From Edaphobacter flagellatus (lineage in GTDB: Bacteria > Acidobacteriota > Terriglobia > Terriglobales > Acidobacteriaceae): a stretch of 64,000 nucleotides of DNA. Location: NCBI RefSeq assembly GCF_025264665.1, contig NZ_CP073697.1, positions 1,984,001 through 2,048,000 on the forward strand, in the 5' to 3' direction. Position numbers and translations under genes: made by a program. Position 1 is the stretch's first letter, and each line of letters opens with the position of its first letter. The notes beneath the pieces are model-generated. The model made no database searches. It was not told the DNA's origin and was given only the letters and a program-made list of their open reading frames with translations. Of the stretch, positions 4,001-18,017 are shown in pieces.

Positions 4001-4497
4001 GGCACCAGCGTGAGAAGCTGTGTGTAGTTGCGGCCATTCAAGGCGAGGTTTTCGACCTGCTTGGAGTCGATGACACGCGCAAGCTCGCCGGACGTTGTAT
4101 TTACCGTCTCGATGGCGCCGCCCTGGACTTCGACGACTTCCGCTGCTTCACCCAAAGACATTGTGAAGTTTGAAGTCACTTTGGCGTCAGCTGTAATCGT
4201 TACGCCGGCCTGCTGAGCCGTCTTAAAACCTGTCTTCGTAACAGAAATAGAGTAGGTCGCAATGGGCAGGTTGGTAGCGATGTAGTTGCCATCGCCGTCG
4301 GACACAACGGTACGCTTTACCTGCGTACCCACATTGGTGATGGTGATGGTAGCTCCTGGGATGGCGGCGCCCGTAGGATCGTCGACAACACCGGATATCT
4401 GACCAAAGCTGCTTTGAGCGTGGGCCATCGGACAAGTGAATACTGAAGCCACTGCGAGCATTAGCACGCTCACAAGCCTCCAATAGCGGATTTGCAT
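1030..4497 (-). CDS. TonB-dependent receptor, Oar-like, with carboxypeptidase-regulatory-like domain
   Basis: This 1155-aa outer-membrane protein has a signal peptide ending near AHAQ, then a carboxypeptidase-regulatory-like (Ig-fold) domain at about residues 30-115 (GQISGVVDDPTGAAIPGA). A plug region follows, with the family motif LALNGRNYTQLLTLVPG and a DG..N segment, and then a long beta-barrel ending in a terminal Phe (LGVKVLF). Family members import oligosaccharides or other bulky substrates powered by TonB. The ATG at 4497 is supported by GGAGG seven nt upstream. It has its own TTGACA promoter and is divergent from the DUF2264 gene. I see no clear TonB box, which is usual for this subgroup. 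The substrate is unknown. Confidence 0.93.
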   Translation of the reverse strand: MQIRYWRLVSVLMLAVASVFTCPMAHAQSSFGQISGVVDDPTGAAIPGATITITNVGTQVKRTVVSDGDGNYIATNLPIATYSISVTKTGFKTAQQAGVTITADAKVTSNFTMSLGEAAEVVEVQGGAIETVNTTSGELARVIDSKQVENLALNGRNYTQLLTLVPGAVVTNPDIFSVTTSLASTNQTINGNRSDTNNLTVDGAYNQVAGSNGSLMNNVGPDFIGEVKIDTSNASAEYGRTSGPTFNIVTKSGTNAFHGGAFEYLRNNYLDATNYIARTKTQLIYNDFGFFLGGPIIKDKLFFFVGEEWKRLRQQAAAQTFTVPTTAMLNGDFSAYCTSNKVNGVQGSFVNGVCTNQVNQLYYPGTSNPIPNNNIASLMSTDGKAIANVYKTISAAGLSFRDGGLPNSNLTLAPSNPLNFHQDLVRFDYVLNQKHSVYGRWIHDQNTLIDPYGTFSNSGILNTTPTTRNRPGQSYLVAWTWAIRSNFINQAQANTSWAAQRIPPYGNNWKRETFGFTYNKLYPGAGTYPNGIPIVNITNYAGFQGPNFALLSPSTDIQVADTLTWIKGVHTFKFGAAYIRDRVDQNGRSNYTGTAGFSIVPTNQNTGVANNQCRLGTANTTCYSLADAFLGNFQSYSEASADPMGHFRFNQIEGFVQDNWKITRRLSLDLGLRYQWIQPFYLQGNNASNFDRSIYNPANAVTVNPSGSIVPGSGNPYNGLVRAGNGVPSDQQIRVPNVNTAIFPLIPTGAPRGFYKMNGAVGPRFGFAYAVDNNTAIRGGIGLFYYRPQGNLIFSQLNLAPFLQNTQVNNGNLATLASLSANNTGLQATISAIDPTNKNPYTWQYSFGVQHQMTRTVLLEMSYVGSVSHHQLRQPNVNFADLGAVVANVNSGTPYSSTAIFNPYKGFAAINSNRFDSNYNYNALQVFASKRAGFVTSTISYTWSKALGDSNGNNQTLENWSNLGYNYGYLSNDRRHSFVATFAIQAPDFKGHNFLVREAVGGWQVSGVARLQSGAYSNVQTNSSVGLGNVRPDYVQGARIYNQHAGICGYLNNGSGSGCNDSNKPFIPVPKTQARYGNAPYAAIRGPGLAQTDATLSKFFPITEQVRVKVQADAFNILNRTNFNGLNLTASNTNFGTISSAFPPRQLQLGVKVLF

Positions 4498-4728: not shown

Positions 4729-5997
4729 ATGACCCACGAAACAACAGCAAATATGGCAAGACGTCACTTTATGAAGAGCATTCTGGCGACCGGTGCCGCC
4801 GCCGCGGCTCCGGCGAATCTTTCCAGCCAGCCGAACCCCGCAAATGAATCTGCACCAAACGACCGGGTCTACTGGATCAAAACCGTCAAACAGATCTCGC
4901 ATCCGGTACTGGAAGCTGTCAGCAAAGCTCAGTTGAGGGAAAAGATGCCGGTTGAAGCGGCTGCCGGAGTTCAGGAAGAGCGACGCAAATCCACGCATCT
5001 TGAGGCCTTTGGCCGGCTCCTAACCGGTTTGGCTCCGTGGCTTGAAAGTATTCCCCCAAATGATGAATCCGCATTGCAGGCGACATACCGCGATTGGGCT
5101 CGACTAGGGATTCAACATGGCACGGACCCTAAATCACCAGACTATATGAACTTCGGTATGACGCCGCAGTCCGTTGTGGATGCTGCGTTTCTCGCGCTCG
5201 GCATCTTGCGTGCGCCAAAGCAGCTGTGGGAACCGCTGGATAAGACGACGCGCGCGAATCTGATAAAGGCTCTTGAAGCTACACGCCAGGTCTTGCCTGG
5301 CCAGTCAAACTGGCTTCTATTTTCGGCGATGGTCGAAGCCGGACTTTGCTTCATGGGAGCACCGTGGGATTCCATGCGTGTGGATTACGCCCTGCAGATG
5401 CATAAGCAGTGGTTTGTTGGCGATGGAACTTACGGCGATGGTCCAAACTTCCACTGGGACTACTACAACAGCTTCGTGATTCAGCCAATGCTGATGAAAT
5501 TGCTTGAGACTGTACCTGCGAAGTCTGGGATGTGGAGCGCATTTAAACCGGTTGTGTTCGAACGCGCGCGCCGTTATGCAGCAATACAGGAGAGATTAAT
5601 CAGTCCTGAAGGAACCTTCCCGGCAGTTGGACGCTCGCTCACTTACCGCTTCGGAGCCTTTCAGCTACTAAGCGATATCAGTCTGCGGCAAATGTTACCT
5701 GAAGGAGTGGCACCAGAACAGGTACGTTGCGCGTTGACTGCTGTGATGAAGCGCATGATCGAGCGCCCTGGCACCTTCGATTCCAACGGATGGCTCACCA
5801 TTGGGTTTGCCGGACATCAGCCGCATATGGGCGAGCCGTATATCTCGACTGGAAGTCTCTACCTCTGTTCTGCCGCGTGGCTACCATTAGGCTTGCCTGC
5901 CGACAACATCTTCTGGTCAGGTCAGGCGAAGCCGTGGACCGCAGTTAAGTTGTGGAACGGCGAAGACATGATGGCGGATCATGCTCTTTCCGTTTAG
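4729..5997 (+). CDS. DUF2264 domain protein, Tat-exported
   Basis: The 422-aa product carries a twin-arginine-like leader (MARRHFMKS then an Ala-rich segment), so it is probably secreted. Residues from about 70 onward match the DUF2264 pattern as I recall it (HLEAFGRLLTGLAPWLE, and the aromatic GDGTYGDGPNFHWDYYNSFV stretch). DUF2264 proteins are predicted alpha/alpha-barrel proteins found in polysaccharide-utilisation loci; no reaction is established that I can name. The chosen ATG at 4729 is the first after the TATAAT box; the ATG at 4753, directly before the RR motif, is equally plausible because neither has a good Shine-Dalgarno sequence. The gene converges on the GH4 gene with 16 nt between stop codons and shares a control region with the divergent TBDR. 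Confidence 0.8.
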   Translation: MTHETTANMARRHFMKSILATGAAAAAPANLSSQPNPANESAPNDRVYWIKTVKQISHPVLEAVSKAQLREKMPVEAAAGVQEERRKSTHLEAFGRLLTGLAPWLESIPPNDESALQATYRDWARLGIQHGTDPKSPDYMNFGMTPQSVVDAAFLALGILRAPKQLWEPLDKTTRANLIKALEATRQVLPGQSNWLLFSAMVEAGLCFMGAPWDSMRVDYALQMHKQWFVGDGTYGDGPNFHWDYYNSFVIQPMLMKLLETVPAKSGMWSAFKPVVFERARRYAAIQERLISPEGTFPAVGRSLTYRFGAFQLLSDISLRQMLPEGVAPEQVRCALTAVMKRMIERPGTFDSNGWLTIGFAGHQPHMGEPYISTGSLYLCSAAWLPLGLPADNIFWSGQAKPWTAVKLWNGEDMMADHALSV

Positions 5998-6013: not shown

Positions 6014-7363
6014 CTACTTCCACTGCATCAGCTTCAGAAGCTCTGCAGAAGGCTCCCACTCTCCGATCGGTGGATAGAGCAGCATCGCTTTACGAAGATC
6101 GCGGAGCGAGCCGCTTATTGCTGCCTGAATAGCAGCGCGCTCGTATGCCTTCACCGCAAGCACCAGTCCTCGGACATCGTTCGGCAGTGGATCGACGGGT
6201 AGTGCTGTTATCGTATCGTTCGATATCCTGCAAACCGTCTCAATCACATCATCCGCTGCGATATCGGGGATCGTTGCCTGATTGCGCATATTCACAATCA
6301 CTCTCTCCGGCTCAGTCCCACATAACGCATTCATCACCTGAAGGGCAATGCGGTGATATCCCGTTGCTGCGCGGAACGGGTCCTCCGGCATGATCTCCTG
6401 ATCGAATGCCGAGCCACCCTCGCCTTCAAGCTTCATATACGATCCCGAGCGCAGATTGAGGTAATCGATGTATGACTGCAGAGCACCGGCTTCATCATGA
6501 ATCGCCATCGATTGAAGGAGGCTCTGCATGAGCGTCTCGTTCATCAATGCAATCTGGTCACCACGAGTGCTTCCCTGCTTGCGCTGATTCTCAAGCGCTC
6601 TGCGCCGTGAATAGTAAAAGAAGAGGTATTCCGTGGGGATCAGCCGCAGAGCACGTATCAGATCGTGATCGAAGAGTGGAGCTGAATAAAGCTGCGACAG
6701 AATGGCATCGTCATTCACGACGCGATCCATCACATCTTCACCTCGCAGCATGATCTTGCGGATCCAGCCAAGATGGTTCAGGCCGACATAATCGCACTCC
6801 ACCTCATGGGGTGAGGCGCCGAGTGCCGTCTGAATGCGATGCAGCATCTCTGTTGGTGTATCGCAGATACCGACAACGCGCGCATTCGAGTGCTGCATAA
6901 TCGCCTGCGTAATCAGCCCTGCAGGATTGGTGAAGTTGATGATCCATGCCTTCGGCGCAATTTTCTCCACCATCCGCGCCTGCTCAATCGCCACGGGAAT
7001 CGTCCGTTGTCCCATAGCTACTCCGCCAGGCCCCGTTGTTTCCTGTCCTGGGTATCCGCATGCGATTGCTACGCGCTCGTCCTGAGCACGGCTGGCGATT
7101 CCACCGACTCGGACACTATTTAAAACGAATGATGCTCCTTCAATGGCCTCCTCGGGACTCCGCGCGACAGATACGCGTAGCGATCCGCCACTGCGGCGTA
7201 CTACCTCTCGGCTCAATCTCGCGATAACCTCTACGCGCTCCGGATCGATGTCGTACAGCAGCAGCTCTTCGGCATCAAGCCGCCGAGCAGACTCATTGAT
7301 TCCAAAAACAACAAGAGGCGTACGAACTCCACCACCACCAAGAAATGCAATTTTACGCGGCAT
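6014..7363 (-). CDS. Glycoside hydrolase family 4, NAD- and metal-dependent (6-phospho)glycosidase
   Basis: The 449-aa product has the GH4 N-terminal Rossmann motif [10 protein letters not shown] (residues 7-16), INFTNPAG (142-149), the metal-ligand Cys of GICDTP (Cys167) and the His of GLNHLGW (His197). GH4 enzymes cleave glycosides, often 6-phosphorylated, by transient oxidation at C3 using NAD+ and Mn2+. The open frame runs further upstream, but the ATG at 7363 is chosen because it begins the Rossmann strand and has GCGAGGAAAATT before it. It overlaps the end of the upstream PfkB kinase by 11 nt, so the two are probably co-translated. That kinase could supply the phosphorylated substrate. 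It is the last gene of the 6014-18017 operon. Confidence 0.9.
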
Positions 7364-8276
7364 AATTTTCCTCGCAGATCGCTTCTGCCTGAGCACGCGT
7401 CGGAAGTGCCTCAAGCGCACCGACCGCTCGCGTCGAAAGAGCGCCGCAGACACAAGCGAACTCAACGCACTGCTGCGGAGAAAGGCCAGAGAGAACACCC
7501 TCAATGAACCCGGCATCAAATGCGTCACCAGCGCCCGTCGTATCGATGGATTCAATATGCGGCGGTCTGACCCTGTATTGCACACCATCGGCGAGCAGAG
7601 CCGCTCCTGCGGAACCAAGCTTTACAAGCGCATGACGCACCCCCAAAGACTGGCAAAGCTCCAGATAACGCGCAGGTGTTCCAGCAAGAATCGTAGCCTC
7701 TTTTTCGTTGGGCATCACGTAGTCGATTGCACGCAGCACTTCCAGGCTTCGCGTGTCTTTAAGCCACGCAATGTGATGTCCAACATCCACCGAGATTGTT
7801 GCGCCATGGCTCCGAAGCGCAGGCAGGAGAGGTCTACTATCGTCTATGCCAAGCGGCAATGCCAGATGAATATGTTTTGCGCGGGCAGCCTCATGCAACA
7901 CATCCGGACTACATCGAAGGTATTCCAATAATTCCTGATTGACACCACGATACGTGAAGAAGGACCTGTCGTGAACAGTTGAGATACTAACGGTTACACC
8001 GGTGCGGCCACGACATCGACTGATATTCGCCGCTGACACGCCAAATGCTGAGAGCCTTGCCTCAATAGCCGCAAACTGTTCGTCGCCTACTACGCCAATC
8101 AATCGAACTTTTCGTCCAAGCCTCGAGAGTGCACAGGCCGTTGTCACTGCGCCTCCACCCAGCTCCCATGCGTATTGCTCGGTGAATATCTCCTCACCAG
8201 GAGACGGCCACTCCGCAAAACCGCCGAAGACATGGTCGAGATAAATTTCGCCGATTACTGTAACGTCGTAACTCAT
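7353..8276 (-). CDS. PfkB-family carbohydrate kinase (second of the locus)
   Basis: The 307-aa ribokinase-like protein begins MSYDVTVIGEIYLDHVF and has the N-terminal LGGGAVTTACALSRLG glycine motif. Its C-terminal signature is DTTGAGDAFDAGF, where the Asp of GAGD is the catalytic base. Such kinases phosphorylate a sugar or sugar derivative, usually at a terminal hydroxyl, using ATP in the cytoplasm. Its ATG overlaps the stop codon of the APC permease gene as ATGA (8273-8276), a strong sign of translational coupling. This makes the upstream in-frame extension to 8402 unlikely. The gene lies between an importer and a GH4 enzyme, which suggests it phosphorylates the imported compound before cleavage. 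Fructoselysine 6-kinase belongs to the same family, but the substrate here is unproven. Confidence 0.9.
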   Translation of the reverse strand: MSYDVTVIGEIYLDHVFGGFAEWPSPGEEIFTEQYAWELGGGAVTTACALSRLGRKVRLIGVVGDEQFAAIEARLSAFGVSAANISRCRGRTGVTVSISTVHDRSFFTYRGVNQELLEYLRCSPDVLHEAARAKHIHLALPLGIDDSRPLLPALRSHGATISVDVGHHIAWLKDTRSLEVLRAIDYVMPNEKEATILAGTPARYLELCQSLGVRHALVKLGSAGAALLADGVQYRVRPPHIESIDTTGAGDAFDAGFIEGVLSGLSPQQCVEFACVCGALSTRAVGALEALPTRAQAEAICEENYAA

Positions 8277-9625
8277 GCCTGCCTGAATGGCCACTCCCGT
8301 TCCCTGTTCGCTTGAATCAAATAAAAGGCAATGCCCGTCACAGCGAGTGCGATACCCGCTGCAATGTGTTTGATCTGGCTTGTCGCAACGATATAAACCC
8401 ATCCCACGAGAGCAATAATCGCCGGCAGCGGATAAAACGGCATACGAAATACATCCGTAGCAGCACCCGATCTACGCCGAAGAAGCAGCACGGCGATGCA
8501 TTGCGCAATCGACTGGAGCAGCGTTTGAATCACGATAAGCGCCGAAATCAGGTCCGAAAGCGAGAAGACACACATCACCGCCGATCCGATTCCCATGTAA
8601 ATCAGGGAAGTTGTCGGGAAATGGCCGCGAGGATGAACGCGTGCAAATATCTTTGGGAATCGTCCATCGGCCGCCGCCGCATACGGGATGCGCGAGTATC
8701 CCAGAAGAATGGCGTAAGCCGAGCCCCAGCTTGCGATCAGGATCAGTATCGAAACGGCGCGCGCTGCCCAACTGCCATGGATCGCATACATGAAATCAGC
8801 CACAATCGCAGTGGAATGCTGCGCACTTCTCCAGGGCAGCACGCCAAGGACGGCAATATTCATCGCCATATAGAGAACGCCTACCACCACGATGGAGAGC
8901 AGCACGGCGCGAGGAATATTGCGCCGCGGATCTTTAATCTCGCCGCCAATCAGGCACACGTTGTTGTAACCGCCATAATCGTAGATCGCGATCAGAACAG
9001 CGGAGCCGAGGCCGAGCCAGAAAGCATGTGAAGGATGAAATGCTGCCGGAGGAAAATCGAAGGCCAGCGATGGATGAAAATGCGTAGCGCCACTCACAAT
9101 GATCCAACCGCATGTCCCCACTACAGCCACCATCACGATGACCGACAAGGTTCCGATGGAATGAATCGAGCGATAGAGCACCCCGAGATTCAGAAGGCAC
9201 AATGCCATCGCAACCAGTTTGAGCTGCAGATGTGTAAATGAATGAAAGACGCCTGAGTATTCGGCAAATCCTACCGCGCCAGAAGCAATCGAGATCGGCC
9301 CAATGAGCAAAGACTGCCACAAAAATAAAAATGAGATCAGGCGTCCTGCACCATGTGGATTAAACGCCTGCAGCAGATAGTGGTAAGAGCCTCCGGAATC
9401 GGGCATTTGCGATCCAAGTTCGGCCCAGACCATACCGTCACATAGTGCCAGCACGGCTCCAAGCATCCATCCCAGCATGGCCTGAGGCCCACCCATTGCA
9501 GCAATCGCCAATGGAATGGTGAGAAAGGGACCAACGCCCACCATGTTAAGCAGGTTGGCGGCAAGCGCTCCCCACAGGCCCATGCCACGTTCGAGATGTT
9601 CAACCTGCACTGCCTGATTCGCCAT
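8273..9625 (-). CDS. APC-superfamily amino-acid/polyamine-type permease
   Basis: The 450-aa product is a polytopic membrane protein with about 12 hydrophobic segments. It opens with GLWGALAANLLNMVGVGPFLTIP, the unwound TM1 pattern of APC transporters, and contains GGSYHYLLQAF and PDSGG motifs. APC members move amino acids, polyamines or amino-acid conjugates across the inner membrane with H+ or by exchange. An amino-acid-type carrier inside an otherwise sugar-oriented operon is unusual; the fructoselysine carrier FrlA of E. coli is a precedent in the same superfamily. The ATG lies 8 nt after the PIG-L stop, and its stop overlaps the PfkB start. It is probably the inner-membrane importer of this locus. 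Confidence 0.88.
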   Translation of the reverse strand: MANQAVQVEHLERGMGLWGALAANLLNMVGVGPFLTIPLAIAAMGGPQAMLGWMLGAVLALCDGMVWAELGSQMPDSGGSYHYLLQAFNPHGAGRLISFLFLWQSLLIGPISIASGAVGFAEYSGVFHSFTHLQLKLVAMALCLLNLGVLYRSIHSIGTLSVIVMVAVVGTCGWIIVSGATHFHPSLAFDFPPAAFHPSHAFWLGLGSAVLIAIYDYGGYNNVCLIGGEIKDPRRNIPRAVLLSIVVVGVLYMAMNIAVLGVLPWRSAQHSTAIVADFMYAIHGSWAARAVSILILIASWGSAYAILLGYSRIPYAAAADGRFPKIFARVHPRGHFPTTSLIYMGIGSAVMCVFSLSDLISALIVIQTLLQSIAQCIAVLLLRRRSGAATDVFRMPFYPLPAIIALVGWVYIVATSQIKHIAAGIALAVTGIAFYLIQANREREWPFRQA

Positions 9626-9633
9626 AAGCGCTG

Positions 9634-12432
9634 CTAGTGAATCTCCGGGTTCTTTGGAAGGCTCAACATATTCGCGAAGAGCCGGAACGCTCCCGGCACT
9701 CCCAGTGGAAGTTCACGATAGAAGGCATAGGCGTTGTAGATGTACACGCCCTTCCCATAGCGTGCGTAGACCAGTCCACCCTTCTGCTCCGGCTGGCCGG
9801 CATCGTGTGTCTCCAGCAATGGAGAGTAGTGGCTGTCCCACGATTGGAGAAATTTCGACCCGCGCTCTTCGATCCAGCCATCAAAATCTTTTTCCGTAAT
9901 TTTGTTTGGCCAGTTGAATACAGGATTGCGAGGATCAAGAATCTTCACAACAGACTTCTCGTCTGTTACCTCTTCAGGATCGCCCGTCATCGCATAAGGA
10001 TAGGGCCCGTAGTTATGGTCATACTCAGGCGTGTTGTATTGGACGATCACAACACCGCCCTTCTCAACGTACTGGAGAAGTCGGGCATTGTTCGCAATCA
10101 GATCAGGACGCACTGCATATGCACGTACCCCTAGGACGATCGCATCGTATTTCTGAAGATCTCCGCCAGCCAGATCCTGGGCAGAGAGATAGCTGACGTG
10201 GACGCCTATCTGCTCCAGCGCGGCGGGAACATCATCCCCGCTTCCTTCGATGTACGCAATATGCTCATCCTGCGCCATCTTGACGTCTGTCCCGATCGCT
10301 GCATACTGTGCAGGCGAGTAGAGGAAGTAAGGCCGCAGTCCAAGATAGCCAGTTGTTATGTAACCTTCTCTGTAATCCTTACCATCCAGCGAAGCTACCG
10401 CTGTAACGGTATACTTCGCGCCCTCGGTAACATTTGGCGAGACAGCAAATGATACCGACTGTTCTTCACCTTCCTGCGCAAAGTGGATAGGAATGGTCTT
10501 CGGCTCAACGCTCCAGCCAGATGGCACATCCAACCTTACAGAAGGATTTGCTGCTCCCTTAACGTTGTTATGGACGCGCACGGTGATCGTAGTTGCTTTG
10601 CTGCCCAGAGGCACAACGCCTGCCGATGGCGACAGAGAGACCGCTAGCGCAGGGCCAACAGGCATAGGATAGCGAAGAAGTCCTGGGCCATTGACGCGGC
10701 TTACGACCTGCACCACACTTGCAAGGTTTATCGTGGCTCCTTCATAGTCGAGCTGAGCTTCGGCCTGTAGCGGGTACGGAGAGAGCGGTTTGTTGCGAGG
10801 AGCACCAGGTGCTATCTCATAAAACGCATTCTGCAATCCATCGCGCGTGAAGTAGGGCCGTGTGAATGGCTCGTCCTCGGGCACTTTCACCGAGTAGATC
10901 GTCTCTATCGCTTCTCCAGCTTTTGCCTGCGACGGCGTCGATACACCACCTGTTACGTTCCAATCTTTGCCTGAAGTCCCCACCACCTTGAGGCTCTTAA
11001 CTGCAAGGGAAGGTACTGCGGACTGATACAGGTGAATCTTTACCGGAAATGAGAGACCGGGCGTGGCCATCTGGAACGTCGTCGCAGCTCCGCGAAACAT
11101 GGCCATCATCGGATCATCTTTACCAGCCTGCGTCACATCGGCGTTCAGTGATATTTGCAGCGCGGCAACAAGAGCATCGTTGAACTGGCGATCTTTGACG
11201 CGGAGTTCATGAAGCACGTCATACTTCGTTTCCGATGGAAGATCGCTCTTCTCGACCTCACCAATCAGCTTTTCAACGCCCAACTTTCCTTTGGCCAGAT
11301 AAGGGGCGATTGTTGCGGGCTTCTCTGCGGAAAACGCCGCAATCGCTTTTTCCACCAGATCGTTGATCGCAGACAACGAGACGCGAAGCGATGACGATGC
11401 CCCCTGCGCCCCTGCAAAATCTGCAATACCAGTGAGCGATGTATCTACTCCATCGAAGAAGCTCTCTTCTTTTGTTTTGGCATCAAGCGTCGTGCCGAAA
11501 CGGTGGTAGTCGCTCATCTGCATTCCCGACAGCGGAACACTTGGCCCTCCATTCTGCGATCGCTGGAATCCAAGTCCCTCTCGCGAGACCTGCACGTATG
11601 TCTCTCCCATCATTTGGTCATACGATCCGATGGGAATGCTGACGGTCACAGACGGCTTGCCTTCCTCCCACTTGCCGGTGACGTGATTCGTCACACCGAC
11701 CGGTCCCCATGTGTGATTCGCATAGTCATACATGCCCTTTTCGGAGACACGGAAGAACGGAACACGAGCATACGTCTTCACCGGCGACCAGGGCAGCAGC
11801 CCCTCCTTGATCTGGTCAGGAAACATCTTCGGGTCTCCTGCCGCCTTGAAGACTTCCTGTGCCATCAGGCCAGCCGTTGCATGTTGCCCGTGTCCGTCCG
11901 TTGGTCCACCCACAAATACAGAGCAGATGACGAGTGGACGCACGGTGCGCACAACCCGCACAGCCTGTTCGAGAACGCGATCATGCCCCCACTGACCAAG
12001 CGCTTCATTCAACGACTTTGAAAAGCCGTAGTCTGCCATCGAAGTGAAGTACTGCGCATCCAGTCCGTAATAGCGGCCTGCCTGCAGCAACTCTTCTGTG
12101 CGCACCAGCCCAAGTGCGTCCCAGTAATCCGACGACATGACATTCGCACCGCCCTCGCCGCGATCCAGCGTCAGCAGACTTACCCGCGCTCCGACGCCAC
12201 GGCTCTCGTACGCCAGCGTACCTCCGTCTTCATCATCAGGATGAGCGACAATCATCAGTACGCTCGCTCGCGTATGCAGGCGCTTCAACGCCTGCCAGAC
12301 TCCGGCAGTTCCTTCATCGGGAGGGATTGGCCGCGCATCAACTACTGGTTTTACACCTGCGGAATGCAATAACCCGCAGGGCAACAACATGGCTACCAGA
12401 GCAACATGAGTCAGTCGTTTCACGAACTCCAT
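9634..12432 (-). CDS. Secreted PIG-L family deacetylase with C-terminal NEW3-like and ThuA/GATase-like domains
   Basis: The 932-aa product has a signal peptide (MEFVKRLTHVALVAMLLPCG) and an N-terminal PIG-L/LmbE domain with the zinc motif AHPDDE near residues 63-68 and the later HGQHAT. PIG-L enzymes remove N-acetyl groups from GlcNAc conjugates such as GlcNAc-inositol or GlcNAc-malate. The middle (about 600-720) looks like an Ig-like NEW3 domain. The last 200 residues (YDAIVLGVRAYAV, LLQYVEKGGVVIVQYNTPEY) resemble a ThuA/glutamine-amidotransferase-like fold. The start at 12432 has AGAAAGG eight nt upstream; the longer frame from 12465 would need TTG. It lies 35 nt after the TBDR and 8 nt before the APC gene, so it probably works in the periplasm between the two importers. 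Confidence 0.85.
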   Translation of the reverse strand: MEFVKRLTHVALVAMLLPCGLLHSAGVKPVVDARPIPPDEGTAGVWQALKRLHTRASVLMIVAHPDDEDGGTLAYESRGVGARVSLLTLDRGEGGANVMSSDYWDALGLVRTEELLQAGRYYGLDAQYFTSMADYGFSKSLNEALGQWGHDRVLEQAVRVVRTVRPLVICSVFVGGPTDGHGQHATAGLMAQEVFKAAGDPKMFPDQIKEGLLPWSPVKTYARVPFFRVSEKGMYDYANHTWGPVGVTNHVTGKWEEGKPSVTVSIPIGSYDQMMGETYVQVSREGLGFQRSQNGGPSVPLSGMQMSDYHRFGTTLDAKTKEESFFDGVDTSLTGIADFAGAQGASSSLRVSLSAINDLVEKAIAAFSAEKPATIAPYLAKGKLGVEKLIGEVEKSDLPSETKYDVLHELRVKDRQFNDALVAALQISLNADVTQAGKDDPMMAMFRGAATTFQMATPGLSFPVKIHLYQSAVPSLAVKSLKVVGTSGKDWNVTGGVSTPSQAKAGEAIETIYSVKVPEDEPFTRPYFTRDGLQNAFYEIAPGAPRNKPLSPYPLQAEAQLDYEGATINLASVVQVVSRVNGPGLLRYPMPVGPALAVSLSPSAGVVPLGSKATTITVRVHNNVKGAANPSVRLDVPSGWSVEPKTIPIHFAQEGEEQSVSFAVSPNVTEGAKYTVTAVASLDGKDYREGYITTGYLGLRPYFLYSPAQYAAIGTDVKMAQDEHIAYIEGSGDDVPAALEQIGVHVSYLSAQDLAGGDLQKYDAIVLGVRAYAVRPDLIANNARLLQYVEKGGVVIVQYNTPEYDHNYGPYPYAMTGDPEEVTDEKSVVKILDPRNPVFNWPNKITEKDFDGWIEERGSKFLQSWDSHYSPLLETHDAGQPEQKGGLVYARYGKGVYIYNAYAFYRELPLGVPGAFRLFANMLSLPKNPEIH

Positions 12433-12467
12433 GCAGACAACCTTTCTGATACTGTCGGCTGACAAGG

Positions 12468-15400
12468 TCAGAAGTAGAATTTAGCCGCCATCTGAATCTG
12501 GCGCGCATTATTGAGCGTACCGCTTACCTTTCCAAACGTACCGGGCGACGCAACGTTGGCCGAAGGAGCAGCGAGATTTGCGTGGTTGAGTGCATTGAAG
12601 AATTCGAATCGGAATTCAAGCTTTCTTACCTCAGTAAACTCAAACTGCTTGAAGAGGCTCAGATCTTCATTGTGTCGCCCAGGTCCGGCATAAGGCCGTG
12701 GACGGCAGCTGCCAAATGTTCCGGCAGCTGGTTGCGAGAATGCGGCGGGATTAATGTAGCGACCCGTTGAAGACTGGTTTGTAATCGCCGAACGATCCTT
12801 TGTAGCTCCCGCAAAGGCGTCCCCGATGCAATTGGGATAGAAAGCGTGATTGCCTCCAGTTTGCGAAACATCTGGAGCGGTTACATTGAATGGATTGCCG
12901 GCTTCCATCGTGACAATCGCATTCAACTGCCAGCCACCAACCAGCTTCGAGGCAACCGTATCATTGTTCATCACTAACCCTCCGCGCCCAATCGGCAGTT
13001 TGTACTGCGCGCTGGCCACAAAGCGATGACGTTGATCGAACGGTGAATTGGAATACTCATGTTCGTAGTCATACGCATTCTGCGGCGTCGAGCCGGCCGT
13101 CAAATTATCCGCATAGTCCGAAAAATTATGCGCATAGGTATAGCTGAACTGATACGCCAGGCCATTCTTCATCTGCCTGCGCAGGCTCGTCACCAGGCCG
13201 TTGTAGTTGGTATTGCCATCGTTCGTCGCCTCCTCAAGGAACGCATGAGCAGAACCGAGATTCAGGTTTGCGTAAGGGAAGAGAACGACTGGCGTCGCAC
13301 CATTAAATCCGGTGATGATTCCCTGGTTGGCATTGCGAAGGCGGTTCATCTTATGGCCGAAGTTGCCTACCCAAACTGCCTCCAGTATCGTACTGGGCGA
13401 TATCTGGAACTGCGGCCCGAAGCTCATCTGCTGCACATAGCCGGTGCGCTGATTCGGATCCTGCCAGTTGGTCTTCTGAATATAGAGTGGTGGATTCGAG
13501 TTCGCGTACGCTGCTCCAGGAAATCCATTCTGGAGGAAGAAGACTGGCGTACTGGTATTTGTTGTTCTTGAATCGTTGACAAATTTCAGGAAGGGCTGGT
13601 TCTGCCCAAGCTGCGACTCAGAGCCAATTCGATTGACGTACTGATAGAAGACTCCGTAGCCACCGCGCAAAACCATGCGATCCGTCGCCTGATAGCTGAA
13701 GCCGAAGCGAGGTGCAAAGTTATTCTTGTCCGGATGGATGAGGGACCGATGGTACCAATCGCCTCCAGATGCAACCGTTAATCCCCCTCCGTTCGCGGTG
13801 TTAAAGTTTGCAAGTGAGTTGGTGCGGTTCAGCCATGGCGAATACAACTCGTATCGCATGCCGTAGTTGACGGTGAATTTCTTCGAAAGCCGCCACGTAT
13901 CTTGTGCGTAGAACGAATTACCAAGCAGATAGTTATGCACAACGATTGCGCTGTTGTAGTACGTCTGATACACATTGCCCAACAGAAAGTCCGGATACCC
14001 AAAGCCATTGGTGCTCGTAAATAATCCTGAGAAACCCATGAAGCCCTGTGGGGCAGCCAGATCGAGAAAGTTCACCGTATTGCTGTGGTATTCGTAGCCG
14101 AACATCAGGCTATGCGTACCGACAAGCTTGGTGAAGTTATCCAGCACCTGCCATACCTGCGCTGCCTGGAACTGCGGGCGGTAGAGATCTACACCAACAC
14201 GCCGGAAGCCCGAGATGTCGATGGGAGGAAGGCCAGCAGAATAGGGCGTCGCGGGAATACCGCTCAGTCCCACCTGGCCTGCGGCCGACGACCCAAGCGT
14301 GACACCGATCGGGTTCGAGTGTGCACTATCTCTGCTCCACCCGAAGCGAAGCTGATTGACGGCTGTTGAGGAAAGAATCGTCGTCAGCCCTAACGCCAAA
14401 CCCTGATTGCGAATGTTGTAGTCCGTCGCAAAACCGCCGTTGCCGATCGTAAAGTTCGAGGTCCATGGCGGATCCTGGCGATGCTGATTGAGGAAGCTGT
14501 AGCGACCGAAGATGCTGTTCTTTTCGCTCAGCTTGTCATCAATACGCGTGTCGAAAGAGTTGACTTGCTGTGGGAGTTGATAGGCGAAGACATAGTTCGA
14601 TGAGCCGTCAAAGGTTCGGTCGACTGATTGAACATTGTTGGGATCAGGCAATAACGCCGCGATCTTGCTTGCAACCGGATCAATGCAGCTGGGGTTGATC
14701 ACATAACTGTTTGGAGCAATGCACCCCGTCTGATTCGCAAGCCTGGTGCTTGGGTTATAGATCTTGCCCAACTGGTTATTCGGGGATGTGAGTTCCTTGA
14801 AATTGCCCTGCTTCATGGCAGCAGAGGGCACTACCGAGCTGACCGTCGTCTGCTGCGTGCTGCGAAGTCCTTGATAGTCGCCAAAGAAGAACAGCTTATC
14901 GCGAGCGATCGGGCCACCGATTGTTCCGCCGAATTGATTCTGGCTGAAGTTGCCTTTGGGCAGCTTATTTGGTGTGACATGATTGTTCGCCCAGCTGTTG
15001 GCATCGAAGACGCTGTTACGCGCATACTCCCATGCGCTGCCGTGAAACTGGTTGGTTCCGCTTTTCGTCGATGCGTTCACAACAGCGCCCGCCGAAGTAC
15101 CGAACTCCGTCGAATAGGTACGCGTCTGCAAGCGGAACTCCTGGATCGCGTCCGGAGGAGGCTGCACATTCTGCACCGAGCCTTCCTGCAGATTGGTTGA
15201 GCCGGAGTTGTTGTCCACGCCGTCGAGCGCGAAGTAGTTCTGCGTTTCGAGATTGCCATTAGAACTGAAGCGATCTGGAGCAGGATTGGCAACTGCAAGA
15301 TTTTTGAAGATACCCGGTTCGAGCAATGCCAGATCGGCATAGCGGCGGGCATTCAATGGGAGATCGTTGATCTGCGTTGTTCCAACGACGTTGCCGACAT

Positions 15401-15848
15401 CAGCCGATTGCGTCTGCAGCGCGATGGCCGAGGCGTTGACTTCGACCGTATCGGAGGTGGCTCCCGCCTTCATCTCGAAATCCACCTGCGCGCGTGTCTT
15501 TACGTGTACTTCGACGGAGGGGTTCTTCGCAGTGCCGAATCCCGAAGCGGAGGCCTCGACAGAATACGTTCCAGGAATCAGCGCCAGTGCCTGATAGGTT
15601 CCATCCTGGTTCGTTGTCAGTGTCGTTGTTACTCCTGTGGCCACATTGCGAATAATCACCGTTGCTCCGGGCACGACGGCTCCGCTTGTGTCACGAAGCG
15701 TTCCCGTGATGGAGCCATTATCGAACTGGGCATAAGCATGATTCGTCATGACGGCGAGCGCCAATAGCAACAACAGACGCACGGCAACACACCAGCGAAA
15801 TCCTTTTCTTACAACCTGGGGAACAACAGTGACAGGCTTGATCATCAT
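12468..15848 (-). CDS. TonB-dependent receptor, Oar-like (glycoconjugate locus)
   Basis: The 1126-aa product has a signal peptide ending NHAYAQ, an Ig-like carboxypeptidase-regulatory domain (GSITGTLRDTSGAVVPGA), a plug (INDLPLNARRYADLALLEPG; YFALDGVDNNSG) and a barrel closing with the aromatic C-terminus MAAKFYF. It should carry the locus substrate across the outer membrane. The ATG at 15848 is chosen because AGGAGG sits seven nt upstream of it; the longer frame from 15869 would put the start upstream of that site. A TTGACA promoter and clustered inverted repeats precede it, so it can be transcribed separately from the lacI-pfkB pair. The PIG-L gene follows after 35 nt. Confidence 0.93.
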   Translation of the reverse strand: MMIKPVTVVPQVVRKGFRWCVAVRLLLLLALAVMTNHAYAQFDNGSITGTLRDTSGAVVPGATVIIRNVATGVTTTLTTNQDGTYQALALIPGTYSVEASASGFGTAKNPSVEVHVKTRAQVDFEMKAGATSDTVEVNASAIALQTQSADVGNVVGTTQINDLPLNARRYADLALLEPGIFKNLAVANPAPDRFSSNGNLETQNYFALDGVDNNSGSTNLQEGSVQNVQPPPDAIQEFRLQTRTYSTEFGTSAGAVVNASTKSGTNQFHGSAWEYARNSVFDANSWANNHVTPNKLPKGNFSQNQFGGTIGGPIARDKLFFFGDYQGLRSTQQTTVSSVVPSAAMKQGNFKELTSPNNQLGKIYNPSTRLANQTGCIAPNSYVINPSCIDPVASKIAALLPDPNNVQSVDRTFDGSSNYVFAYQLPQQVNSFDTRIDDKLSEKNSIFGRYSFLNQHRQDPPWTSNFTIGNGGFATDYNIRNQGLALGLTTILSSTAVNQLRFGWSRDSAHSNPIGVTLGSSAAGQVGLSGIPATPYSAGLPPIDISGFRRVGVDLYRPQFQAAQVWQVLDNFTKLVGTHSLMFGYEYHSNTVNFLDLAAPQGFMGFSGLFTSTNGFGYPDFLLGNVYQTYYNSAIVVHNYLLGNSFYAQDTWRLSKKFTVNYGMRYELYSPWLNRTNSLANFNTANGGGLTVASGGDWYHRSLIHPDKNNFAPRFGFSYQATDRMVLRGGYGVFYQYVNRIGSESQLGQNQPFLKFVNDSRTTNTSTPVFFLQNGFPGAAYANSNPPLYIQKTNWQDPNQRTGYVQQMSFGPQFQISPSTILEAVWVGNFGHKMNRLRNANQGIITGFNGATPVVLFPYANLNLGSAHAFLEEATNDGNTNYNGLVTSLRRQMKNGLAYQFSYTYAHNFSDYADNLTAGSTPQNAYDYEHEYSNSPFDQRHRFVASAQYKLPIGRGGLVMNNDTVASKLVGGWQLNAIVTMEAGNPFNVTAPDVSQTGGNHAFYPNCIGDAFAGATKDRSAITNQSSTGRYINPAAFSQPAAGTFGSCRPRPYAGPGRHNEDLSLFKQFEFTEVRKLEFRFEFFNALNHANLAAPSANVASPGTFGKVSGTLNNARQIQMAAKFYF

Positions 15849-15938
15849 CTGCTCGCCTCCTGGGCTCATCGATCAAAACTCTTGCGCAACCGAAGATGCC
15901 ATCTGCGCCGGGTGTCAGCGCCAGAACTCTATGAATTT

Positions 15939-15973
15939 ATCGGTATCGTTATCGGTAACGTACAGGTACCGTA
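15939..15973. promoter_or_regulatory. Cluster of inverted and direct repeats, LacI-type operator candidate
   Basis: CGTTATCGGTAACG (15947-15960) has perfect 5-bp arms, CGTTA and TAACG. ATCGGTA occurs twice, 12 bp apart, at 15939-15945 and 15951-15957. CGGTA/TACCG arms flank 9 nt at 15953-15971. The cluster lies just downstream of and over the TBDR -10 region, where a repressor would block transcription. The LacI-type regulator two genes upstream is the obvious candidate. Confidence 0.5.
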
Positions 15974-15997
15974 TGACGCTCATGGCTGCTCTGTCAA
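15968..15997 (-). promoter_or_regulatory. Promoter for the glycoconjugate-locus TBDR
   Basis: TTGACA is at 15992-15997 on the minus strand, 7 nt past the pfkB stop codon. The best -10 is weak: TACGGT at 18-nt spacing (15968-15973) or ATACGG at 17. The perfect -35 together with the overlapping repeats makes a regulated promoter likely. Confidence 0.45.
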
Positions 15998-16004
15998 CAG
16001 ATTT

Positions 16005-16985
16005 TTACATTCTGTTTCGCTTTTTTTCACCTGCCTGCATCATCGCAGTAAGATGGCGGCGATATTCCTTGGCATCGGGCAAGCCTTGCGATCCACCAGG
16101 CTGCGAGGCCGACAAACTGCCACAGATGTTGCCTGCGCGCAGACATTCGTTCCAATCGGCTCCGTGAAGAAACGCGTGCAGGAAGCCTCCATCGAAGGCA
16201 TCGCCTGCGCCCGTTGCATCGACGACCGCGATGGGCAAAGCAGGCTGGCGATACAGTTTGCCATCAGCCATCAGCATCGCGCCGCGCTTATCCAGCTTGA
16301 TGACTGGAACGCGAACCCAGTCCTGCAGCTTTTCCAGAGCGCGCATCGCATCGCTTGCGCCCGTGATCGCCTTTGCCTCGTGCTCGTTGGGAAAGATGAA
16401 TTCGCAATGCCGGACGATGGAAAGAAGCTGCGATGCGGAGAGATCGGGGTTCCATCCAAAGTCAGCGGAGAGCGTGATGCCATCTTCGCGCAGCTCTTTC
16501 AGCACAGGAATCCATTTGCGCGGCTGGCGCAGAGCGCATGCGAGATGGACGTGGCGAGCGCGGTGGAGTTTGTCACGCACAGGCTTATGCGTCAGCAGCT
16601 CTTCCAGCCGTTGATTGATGGGTTCGTGCGTCACCATCATCTTGTTGGAGTGATACGCGATCGATACTGTCAGCGCGGTGGGCTGATCTTTGCGGACCTC
16701 GCAGGCGGTGACGTCGAGGCCTTCGTTCAGAATCTCGTTCCAGGTAGGGAGCACACTGGCATCGGCTCCAACGCGGGTGACGATTCCGGTTACGCTACCG
16801 AGCCTGCTGGCGGCGATTGCGGCAGTCGCCAATCCGCCGCCGGGCGCGATCAGGAAGCTGTCGGTCTTGACCTCTTCGCCGAATCGCGGCTGGTTTCGCA
16901 GCTGATAAAAGATCATGTCGGAAAAGAACTCTCCGAACACAACCAGGTCAAACGATCTTGCGCCGGCTCGCTTCGTCTTCGGCAT
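16005..16985 (-). CDS. PfkB-family carbohydrate kinase (first of the locus)
   Basis: The 326-aa ribokinase-fold protein has an N-terminal APGGGLATAAIAASRLG motif and the C-terminal catalytic signature VDATGAGDAFDGGF. It resembles the second kinase of the locus (7353-8276) in layout and motifs, so the two are probably diverged paralogues acting on related molecules. The ATG at 16985 is preferred over the one at 16997 because GGGAGA at 16990-16995 serves as its ribosome site and would be inside the gene otherwise. It starts 21 nt after the lacI stop, consistent with co-transcription. The substrate is not predictable; keeping two PfkB kinases in one locus suggests two phosphorylatable products. 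Confidence 0.88.
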   Translation of the reverse strand: MPKTKRAGARSFDLVVFGEFFSDMIFYQLRNQPRFGEEVKTDSFLIAPGGGLATAAIAASRLGSVTGIVTRVGADASVLPTWNEILNEGLDVTACEVRKDQPTALTVSIAYHSNKMMVTHEPINQRLEELLTHKPVRDKLHRARHVHLACALRQPRKWIPVLKELREDGITLSADFGWNPDLSASQLLSIVRHCEFIFPNEHEAKAITGASDAMRALEKLQDWVRVPVIKLDKRGAMLMADGKLYRQPALPIAVVDATGAGDAFDGGFLHAFLHGADWNECLRAGNICGSLSASQPGGSQGLPDAKEYRRHLTAMMQAGEKKRNRM

Positions 16986-17006
16986 ACGATCTCCCAAAGG
17001 TAACAG

Positions 17007-18017
17007 CTAGTTTGCGCGGGTGGATGCGCGTTCGACTATTTTTGGCGAGAGTGTGACGCTACGCTGCGCTGTCTCGCCTTTCTCTTCAATCCGTTTCAGC
17101 GTCATGCGCGCTACGCGACGGCCGATCTCTTCGTGCGCGAGGTCGATGCTCGTGAGCGAAATTCCGGTCTCGCAAAGATCGGCTACGTTGCCGCAGCCGA
17201 TGATCTGAAGCTGCTTTGGAACCTCGATGGCTGCGGCGATCACCGCATCGCGCGCGCCAGCAGCCAGAAGGTCGGTGTAGGCAACGATGCCGTCGGGACG
17301 GACGCGCGATGCGATGAGGCGCTGCATGATCTCGAAGCCGCTGCGATAGTCGGAGGCTCCAGGATGCGTCTCGAAGATCCAGTCCTGCCTGACGGAGACA
17401 CCAGCATCGCGATGCGCTTCGCGGAAGCCTGCGAAGCGCTGATCGGCAACGGCTGTTCGCGGGCCGCGCAGATAGACGATGCGTCGACATCGGCGACCGA
17501 GCAGATGTTCTGCAGCGAATTTGCCGACTTCGGCTTCGCGCAGACCGACGCTCAAGCCTGCGGCTCGCGGAGGCGCGGTGCCTGCATAGATAACCGGCAC
17601 CGTTGTTTCGGTGAGAGCCTGCGGAACGGCGGAGGCGTCGCTTCGCGGACAGAAGATGAGAGCGTCGACCTGCCGTGAGAGATGCAGCTCGGTTTCGCGC
17701 TCTTCCATCTCATCGTCACCTTCGATGGAAGAGAGGACGAGACTGTAGCTCGCGGGGCGGAAGACCTCGTTGATGCCTCGCACCATAAGGGCTACGGCTG
17801 GGTTGGCGAGACTGGGAACGACCATGCCGACGCTGTAGGTCTGTCCGGTGCGGAGTCCACGGGCGGAGATGTTGGGGCGATAGTTGAGCTCCTTCATCCG
17901 CTTGAGGACGCGCGCTTTTGTTTCGGCGCTAACATCGGTCTGACCGCGGAGGACCTTGGAGATGGTCATCTTGGAGAGGTTCAGATCGTTCGCGATGTCC
18001 TGAAGACGGATAGCCAT
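17007..18017 (-). CDS. LacI/GalR-family transcriptional regulator of the glycoconjugate locus
   Basis: The 336-aa protein has an N-terminal helix-turn-helix (IRLQDIANDLNLSKMTISKVLRG), a hinge segment (ISARGLRTGQT) and a periplasmic-binding-protein-like effector domain (SVGMVVPSLANPAVALMVRGI). LacI-type proteins usually repress sugar genes until an effector binds. It heads the minus-strand series and is followed 21 nt later by a PfkB kinase. The operator-like repeats at 15939-15973, before the TBDR, are its most likely targets. The effector may be the substrate or its phosphorylated form; neither can be named. Confidence 0.92.
   Translation of the reverse strand: MAIRLQDIANDLNLSKMTISKVLRGQTDVSAETKARVLKRMKELNYRPNISARGLRTGQTYSVGMVVPSLANPAVALMVRGINEVFRPASYSLVLSSIEGDDEMEERETELHLSRQVDALIFCPRSDASAVPQALTETTVPVIYAGTAPPRAAGLSVGLREAEVGKFAAEHLLGRRCRRIVYLRGPRTAVADQRFAGFREAHRDAGVSVRQDWIFETHPGASDYRSGFEIMQRLIASRVRPDGIVAYTDLLAAGARDAVIAAAIEVPKQLQIIGCGNVADLCETGISLTSIDLAHEEIGRRVARMTLKRIEEKGETAQRSVTLSPKIVERASTRAN

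Follow-up and report, generated by a model that had tools for sequence, protein, structure and literature searches.

The described systems closest to the locus considered here, a putative glycoconjugate utilization operon of Edaphobacter flagellatus in a stretch of 64,000 nucleotides (contig NZ_CP073697.1, positions 1,984,001 to 2,048,000; hereafter the window), are the chb and frl systems, the deacetylases of the MshB/Mca/PIG-L type, and a gene set of Xanthomonas that is taken up below. The chb system of Escherichia coli (ChbBCA, ChbG, and ChbF) imports its substrate via a phosphotransferase system (PTS), and N-deacetylation precedes cleavage by ChbF, a glycosidase of glycoside hydrolase (GH) family 4 that needs a phosphorylated substrate; its operon has neither a kinase gene nor inositol genes. 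The deacetylase ChbG acts inside the cell and belongs to a different family from PIG-L. The fructoselysine system combines an APC carrier (FrlA) and a PfkB kinase (FrlD) with a SIS-type deglycase (FrlB). The known enzymes MshB, Mca, and PIG-L are biosynthetic or detoxifying; members of the PIG-L/LmbE family possess a His2-Asp metal site, and they deacetylate GlcNAc-phosphatidylinositol (GlcNAc-PI) and GlcNAc-inositol (GlcNAc-Ins) (PMC4101496).

Abundant compounds of plants, fungi, and actinobacteria include glycosylphosphatidylinositol (GPI) anchors, glycosyl-inositol phosphoceramides (GIPCs), and mycothiol. The GPI core has the structure Man-Man-Man-alpha-1,4-GlcN-alpha-1,6-Ins, with three alpha-linked mannoses, and in plants the first mannose carries a beta-linked galactose (PMC7704450). 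A bacterial route acting on the sugar-inositol bond itself was not found described in the open literature, subscription journals being mostly outside the scope of that search.

Here, the gene set of E. flagellatus was compared with its counterparts in the same class of Acidobacteriota and in more distant bacteria. It is a real, conserved operon with a probably catabolic role. The reading that we favour, at a probability of about 0.52, is that the operon serves the LacI-controlled use of an alpha-glycosyl-inositol, most likely D-glucosaminyl-alpha-myo-inositol (GlcN-Ins), whose sources would most likely be GPI-type anchors, GlcNAc-inositol lipids, or mycothiol. Judged from its sequence, the operon would work in the manner of chb (deacylation, phosphorylation, GH4 cleavage), yet by the tested features it is a member of neither chb, frl, nor the N-glycan nix system. 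Instead of PTS import and a ChbG-family deacetylase, it encodes an APC permease and a PIG-L protein; unlike frl, it has no FrlB-type SIS deglycase and possesses GH4, PIG-L, and a TonB-dependent receptor (TBDR).

Gene content and conserved linkage

The seven genes, identified by their Pfam domains, lie on the minus strand between positions 6014 and 18017 in the order LacI, PfkB2, TBDR, PIG-L fusion, APC, PfkB1, GH4, with start codons that we picked from the listed reading frames:

6014..7363, minus strand: GH4 NAD- and metal-dependent glycosidase of the phospho-type, with Asp168 after Cys167 (Pfam PF02056/PF11975; alignment with ChbF and MelA)
7353..8276, minus strand: PfkB1 sugar kinase, proposed glycoside 6-kinase (Pfam PF00294; linkage to GH4; tree)
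8273..9625, minus strand: APC-family inner-membrane permease (Pfam PF13520; linkage to GH4; conserved Asp63)
9634..12432, minus strand: PIG-L (LmbE) protein with an NPCBM-associated domain, proposed periplasmic N-deacetylase or amidase (Pfam PF02585, PF10633)
12468..15869, minus strand: TBDR with CarboxypepD_reg and OMP_b-brl_4 domains (Pfam PF25183, PF13620)
15938..15959, minus strand: predicted LacI-type operator GTTACCGATAACGATACCGATA before the TBDR gene (scans of the window, shuffles, and relatives)
16005..16985, minus strand: PfkB2 sugar kinase, paralogue of PfkB1 (Pfam PF00294; tree)
17007..18017, minus strand: LacI-family regulator (Pfam PF00356, PF13377)

The original prediction, made from the letters of the window, had described seven same-strand genes of these families, several of them overlapping or nearly so, and this description was borne out: the APC and PfkB1 genes overlap by 4 bases (ATGA) and the PfkB1 and GH4 genes by 11 bases, while gaps of 8 and 35 bases part PIG-L from APC and TBDR from PIG-L, respectively. 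Its picture of one gene run holds for the tight block from TBDR to GH4, whereas the LacI and PfkB2 genes are set off from this block by 135 bases containing the operator. Because this gap holds a conserved LacI-type operator, transcription may restart ahead of the TBDR gene.

The original prediction would have been refuted by a lack of conserved co-occurrence in relatives; it withstood this check, for which 299 genomes of the class were searched with the GH4 protein. Matches at E 1e-20 or better were obtained in 26 genomes, and 23 genomes (24 places, window included) matched at E < 1e-100; the DNA surrounding each of the 23 places outside the window (22 genomes) was compared. All 23 loci have a PfkB gene no more than 100 bp from GH4; an APC homologue occurs within 10 kb in 20, a TBDR in 17, and PIG-L in 16. 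These counts are lower bounds because the DNA available for L041, L043, L044, and L051 is short, as it is for L171 and L177 among the controls, whose counts are likewise lower bounds. By comparison, eight same-class GH4 loci of other clades contain no PfkB, APC, PIG-L, or iol gene, and a TBDR occurs in two of them. A chance association of the gene set is excluded by the conserved linkage in 23 other class loci. Gene order varies among the relatives, so the association has outlived rearrangement: the TBDR and PIG-L genes are divergent from the PfkB-GH4 unit in L040 (identical to L065), L042, and L070, and PIG-L lies downstream of GH4 in L049, L050, L052, and L053. In L052 (4144-7934), a TPR protein and an FG-GAP/UnbV_ASPIC protein are encoded between APC and PfkB, where L053 and L049, of the same genus, have reading frames of similar size.

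Named genomes were scanned as well, using the GH4 alignment, and at least 591 loci were confirmed; all counts out of 80 given here refer to the best 80 of these. The closest named matches among them are from Acidobacteriaceae, e.g., Bryocella elongata; the 4.45-Mb genome of the window itself was found to have one GH4 gene. With the same distance limits, PfkB accompanies GH4 in 50/80 loci and APC in 36/80, while TBDR was found in 25/80, PIG-L in 17/80, GH35 in 11/80 (Dyella, Luteibacter, and Xanthomonas), and the alpha-mannosidases GH92 or GH125 in 7/80. No PfkB turned up in the scan of L072. The loci whose GH4 is about 40% identical or less, mostly from Streptomyces and often without adjacent PfkB and APC genes, may serve another substrate.

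Signature residues of the encoded proteins

The N- and C-terminal Pfam domains of the GH4 protein score 149.9 and 133.4 bits, respectively (cut-offs 23.2 and 24.1). Residues C167 and H197, which we take to be metal ligands, are identical in ChbF and MelA of E. coli. Five residues, R85, R92, E96, Q107, and E108, are common to the window protein and ChbF and all differ in MelA; since ChbF acts on a 6-phosphate substrate and MelA does not, this comparison served to recognise the phospho-type, and residues of this kind presumably mark phosphate binding. Another residue, D95, is also present in MelA and is not diagnostic. The residue pattern supports a phosphorylated glycoside as the predicted substrate, in agreement with the GH4 step that had been proposed for this operon.

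The position following the metal-binding Cys separates alpha-type GH4 enzymes, with the motif CDMP, from beta-type ones, with CN(V/I)P. The window protein has Asp168 at this position, as have 19/19 and 28/28 aligned members of its clade and an annotated 6-phospho-alpha-glucosidase. An Asn is found there in ChbF, in two annotated 6-phospho-beta-glucosidases (L193 and L194), and in four solved chains named 6-phospho-beta-glucosidase, 1s6y, 5c3m, 1up7, and 1up6, the last two of which are near-identical; the window GH4 thus lacks the Asn of the phospho-beta-glucosidase type. Because the clade has Asp where beta-type enzymes have Asn, its substrate is likely alpha-linked as well as phosphorylated.

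Residues of the GH4 protein also bear on a chitobiose-like route, in which a GlcNAc disaccharide would be deacetylated, phosphorylated, and cut by GH4. Nine residues of the ChbF -1 subsite are listed in the literature, where ChbF is also described as requiring prior deacetylation by ChbG (PMC13197890), and eight of the nine are identical in the window GH4. The ninth, however, is Asp168, a position at which ChbF and other beta-type enzymes have Asn; moreover, the deacetylase family and its likely compartment are different, neither a PTS nor a chitinase is encoded by the seven genes, and the linkage to inositol genes described below would go unexplained. We regard such a route as very improbable.

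In the PIG-L protein, the residues H64, D66, D67, H181, and H184 are invariant in 10/10 aligned sequences, and all metal and catalytic residues are present; the HPDD and HxxH motif is shared with MshB, Mca, and PIG-L. Unlike these enzymes, the window protein is about 930 residues long, is probably secreted, as judged by eye from its signal-peptide-like N-terminus, carries extra domains, and would have a catabolic role under the GlcN-Ins proposal. Its NCBIfam matches to Mca and MshB are far below the cut-offs. The long PIG-L protein has a paralogue of about 50% identity elsewhere in the window genome (L055 3792-6725; C1 at about 3.107 Mb), encoded near a TBDR gene and away from the only GH4 gene. 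In the APC permease, Asp63 is invariant (20/20) and Asp216 occurs in 13/20 sequences; these acidic residues are suggestive of, and might suit, a cationic substrate.

A tree of PfkB proteins places the PfkB2 clade as sister to the GH4-adjacent kinase of L095, a locus that also holds a TBDR and a PIG-L protein at 52% identity. The window operon looks as if two modules, PfkB2-TBDR-PIG-L and APC-PfkB1-GH4, had been joined. Neither kinase groups with IolC-type proteins, and an assignment of PfkB1 or PfkB2 as IolC (5-dehydro-2-deoxygluconokinase) was rejected; the kinase-DUF2090 protein of L057 and its counterparts in L067 and L081 form a separate, fully supported branch.

From a deacetylase for GlcNAc conjugates next to an APC carrier, the original prediction had suggested a glycosylated amino acid or Amadori-like compound, among others, as the substrate, with the APC carrier and PfkB kinase of the fructoselysine system as a partial precedent. 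Besides this pairing, a Bacillota locus (L120 3669-8648) could be cited in favour of such a compound, in which PfkB-GH4 is flanked by PLP-dependent decarboxylase-family and FAD amino-acid-oxidase-like genes. This part of the original prediction was not supported: the permease scores 105.4 bits with the FrlA model (cut-off 800), the kinases PfkB1 and PfkB2 score 66.4 and 62.2 bits with the FrlD model (cut-off 247), no SIS deglycase is among the seven genes, and linkage to inositol genes would be left without a reason. The GH4 of L120 is only 37% identical, and its PfkB-GH4 pair may serve another substrate. An amino-acid or Amadori substrate therefore has little chance of being the right one.

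Inositol genes and the proposed pathway

An iol gene stands beside GH4 in 8/80 named loci: L057 and L081 from Azospirillaceae, L067 from Sphingomonas, L070, L076, L090, and L104 from Acidobacteriota, and L078 from a proteobacterial metagenome-assembled genome (L076 is on the same contig as the class locus L044). The GH4 proteins of L057, L067, and L070 are 63%, 58%, and 61% identical to that of the window. Judged by NCBIfam cut-offs, IolB and IolD of L070 and L104 and IolG of L057, L070, and L078 score above, and IolE of L070 and L090 and IolG of L104 below; the remaining assignments in named loci rest on similarity to the iol proteins of L057, L070, L078, L090, and L104. In L070, the genes for PIG-L, TBDR, PfkB, GH4, LacI, and iolB-D-E-G lie side by side in 15 kb, with no APC gene seen there, and L078 has the row TBDR, APC, PfkB, GH4, PIG-L, IolG. 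The annotated record of a Novosphingobium plasmid lists, one after another, iolE-D-C-G, GH92, TBDR, RpiR, APC, PfkB, GH4, and GH2; a gene for a histidine-type phosphatase is close by. By our rough figure, made without a computed control, at most about 1% of randomly chosen genes would have an iol cluster within 10 kb, and the linkage in 8/80 loci (7 organism groups) is well above this expectation. Within the class, IolD, called at E 1e-100, is present in 10/12 GH4 carriers outside the window's family, versus 49/299 of all genomes.

Since iolB, iolD, iolE, and iolG are linked to the set in relatives, the aglycone would be inositol, and glucosamine is suggested as the sugar by the deacetylation of GlcNAc-PI and GlcNAc-Ins in the PIG-L family. 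From this we infer the substrates and reactions as follows. The TBDR would carry an inositol glycoconjugate into the periplasm, where the PIG-L protein would strip the N-acyl group from GlcNAc-Ins (cf. MshB and PIG-L) or from a mycothiol-type conjugate (cf. Mca). The now cationic GlcN-Ins would be taken up by the APC permease and phosphorylated on the sugar, presumably at C6, by PfkB1 and perhaps also PfkB2, and the NAD-dependent GH4 enzyme would oxidise it, eliminate, and release GlcN-6-phosphate and inositol. Both the conserved linkage and the residues are in line with the order of steps originally proposed, from import and deacetylation through a second import to phosphorylation and GH4 cleavage. 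The iol linkage points to inositol as the aglycone, whereas the original prediction had named GlcN-inositol only as one compound to test.

With mannose or another hexose in place of glucosamine, the substrate would be a compound such as Man-alpha-Ins from fungal GIPCs or mycobacterial phosphatidylinositol mannosides (PIMs), and GH4 would release Man-6-phosphate. The iol linkage fits such a compound as well, GH92 occurs in one of the 23 class loci in addition to the mannosidases of the seven named loci, cores of fungal GIPCs include Man-alpha-1,2-Ins and Man-alpha-1,6-Ins (PMC6151786), and a search of the window genome for NagB gave no match. Such a substrate is nevertheless unlikely, as it leaves unexplained both the PIG-L protein of 16/23 class loci and a permease of the amino-acid class.

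Several observations weigh against GlcN-Ins as the substrate, or against inositol as its aglycone. Among the 23 class loci, an iol gene was seen in L044 only (IolB), and 72/80 named loci have none in the DNA examined, many of these being Streptomyces loci in which GH4 identity is about 40% at most and no APC gene was found. Of the ten IolD-positive carriers, six are congeneric, and a seventh member of their genus (G240) has IolD without this GH4. Neither IolD at E 1e-100 nor IolG above the NCBIfam cut-off was detected in any of the 11 carriers sampled from the window's family, the window genome among them, and the same holds for 5/5 Xanthomonas carriers; inositol would therefore not be consumed through the known route in these hosts. 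Either the sugar alone could be used through known routes in hosts without IolD, or their substrate may have another aglycone. As a test of GlcN-6-phosphate use, the absence of NagB from the window genome is uninformative, as the model matched in 7/17 genomes and exceeded its cut-off in 1/17. The best solved match of the PIG-L protein is a weak one to LnmX (E 5.6e-4), and the solved chain 6wbt, called a cellulase, also has Asp at the alpha/beta position of GH4. Finally, the Xanthomonas set sits inside the N-glycan nix cluster, and its link to mannosidases is weaker than it looks because the single GH125 of each of the five genomes, although adjacent to GH4, is presumably the one that belongs to nix, which agrees with what has been published on strain 306.

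This Xanthomonas set narrows the earlier claim that no described pathway has these genes. A 2017 comparison noted in Xanthomonas citri 306 a TBDR, bga, yhfM, rbk, and celF between nixI and nixJ, placed them by position in N-glycan breakdown, and in its available text gives the set (TBDR, beta-galactosidase, permease, kinase, celF) no function (PMC5700972). Matched by gene names, the TBDR, APC, PfkB, and GH4 are apparently the same as in the window, with GH35 replacing PIG-L, and in five Xanthomonas loci GH4 is 59-61% identical to that of the window. The operon could accordingly be viewed as an accessory part of protein N-glycan degradation. In Nitrospirillum, however, a GH92-GH125-TBDR unit adjoins the iol genes of the iol-GH4 cluster, about 20 kb from a separate nix-like cluster (GH29, GH20, GH2, GH3, GH125, GH35); GH92 or GH125 was not found in 22/23 class loci; GH92, GH125, GH3, GH20, and GH18 are all missing from the seven window genes; and no known step of N-glycan breakdown calls for an iol operon. 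A role in N-glycan degradation thus appears improbable. Two GH29-like genes are present in the Nitrospirillum cluster, and we know of no place for such enzymes in the GPI glycan. In Xanthomonas sp. Leaf148 (L061 5719-9063), a single open frame of 1114 residues covers both GH35 and APC, which may reflect a fusion or else an effect of the frame.

Returning to GlcN-Ins, its use may be one form of a wider pathway. In the DNA seen, the Xanthomonas, Novosphingobium, and Nitrospirillum loci have a GH35 or GH2 beta-galactosidase-like gene instead of PIG-L and also hold GH92 and/or GH125; the Dyella and Luteibacter loci have GH35 and no mannosidases nearby. Given such exchangeable outer enzymes, APC-PfkB-GH4 can be read as a common GlcN-Ins salvage core, and in these loci beta-galactosidase-like enzymes and alpha-mannosidases, replacing PIG-L or acting beside it, would trim the plant GPI glycan to GlcN-Ins. 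More tentatively than for the operon itself, and at somewhat less than even odds, we propose a widespread GPI-glycan pathway in which GH35/GH2, GH92, GH125, or PIG-L act first, followed by APC, PfkB (forming GlcN6P-alpha-inositol), and an alpha-type GH4, and which probably spread horizontally among Acidobacteriota, alpha-, and gammaproteobacteria.

If correct, the GlcN-Ins reading would tell what a GH4 clade and a kinase do that so far carry only the annotations 6-phospho-beta-glucosidase and PfkB family kinase. It would also offer a pair of enzymes whose substrate is precise and testable, and account for the set in the Xanthomonas nix cluster that had no assigned function. The iol neighbours in several distant bacteria hint at an undescribed nutrient pathway.

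The predicted LacI-type operator and neighbouring genes

With up to 3 mismatches allowed, the predicted operator GTTACCGATAACGATACCGATA has no second match in the window, and it had no counterpart in 100 shuffles. Before the TBDR gene it was found in 6/6 relatives read, unchanged in L032, L036, and L073 and altered in L056, L062, and L084, and its 12-base core is present in ten relative loci. Control of the operon by LacI is proposed on these grounds. The window genome contains three exact 12-base sites, one being that of the operon. The second (L186 1501-1512; C1 3318764) lies directly before another TBDR-like gene, which adjoins a LysR-type regulator (families read by eye), and no link to sugar or inositol genes was found for the third (L183). 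Single core sites mean little because a reversed control pattern also gives 0 to 3 matches per genome, and the operator was dropped as a guide to further regulon genes. A simple promoter scan returned fewer sites than in shuffles and was not used.

Just past the operon, a second TBDR of the OMP_b-brl_4 type is encoded at 1030-4497 (minus strand). Between the two, at 4729-5997 (plus strand) and convergent with GH4, lies a gene for a DUF2264 protein with a Tat-like signal. It was rejected as an operon member on account of its opposite strand and of 0 matches in the 23 class loci; one 31% match occurs near a Streptomyces GH4 (L133). Its solved matches are named beta-galactosidase, beta-D-glucuronic acid dehydratase, and glucuronate dehydratase.

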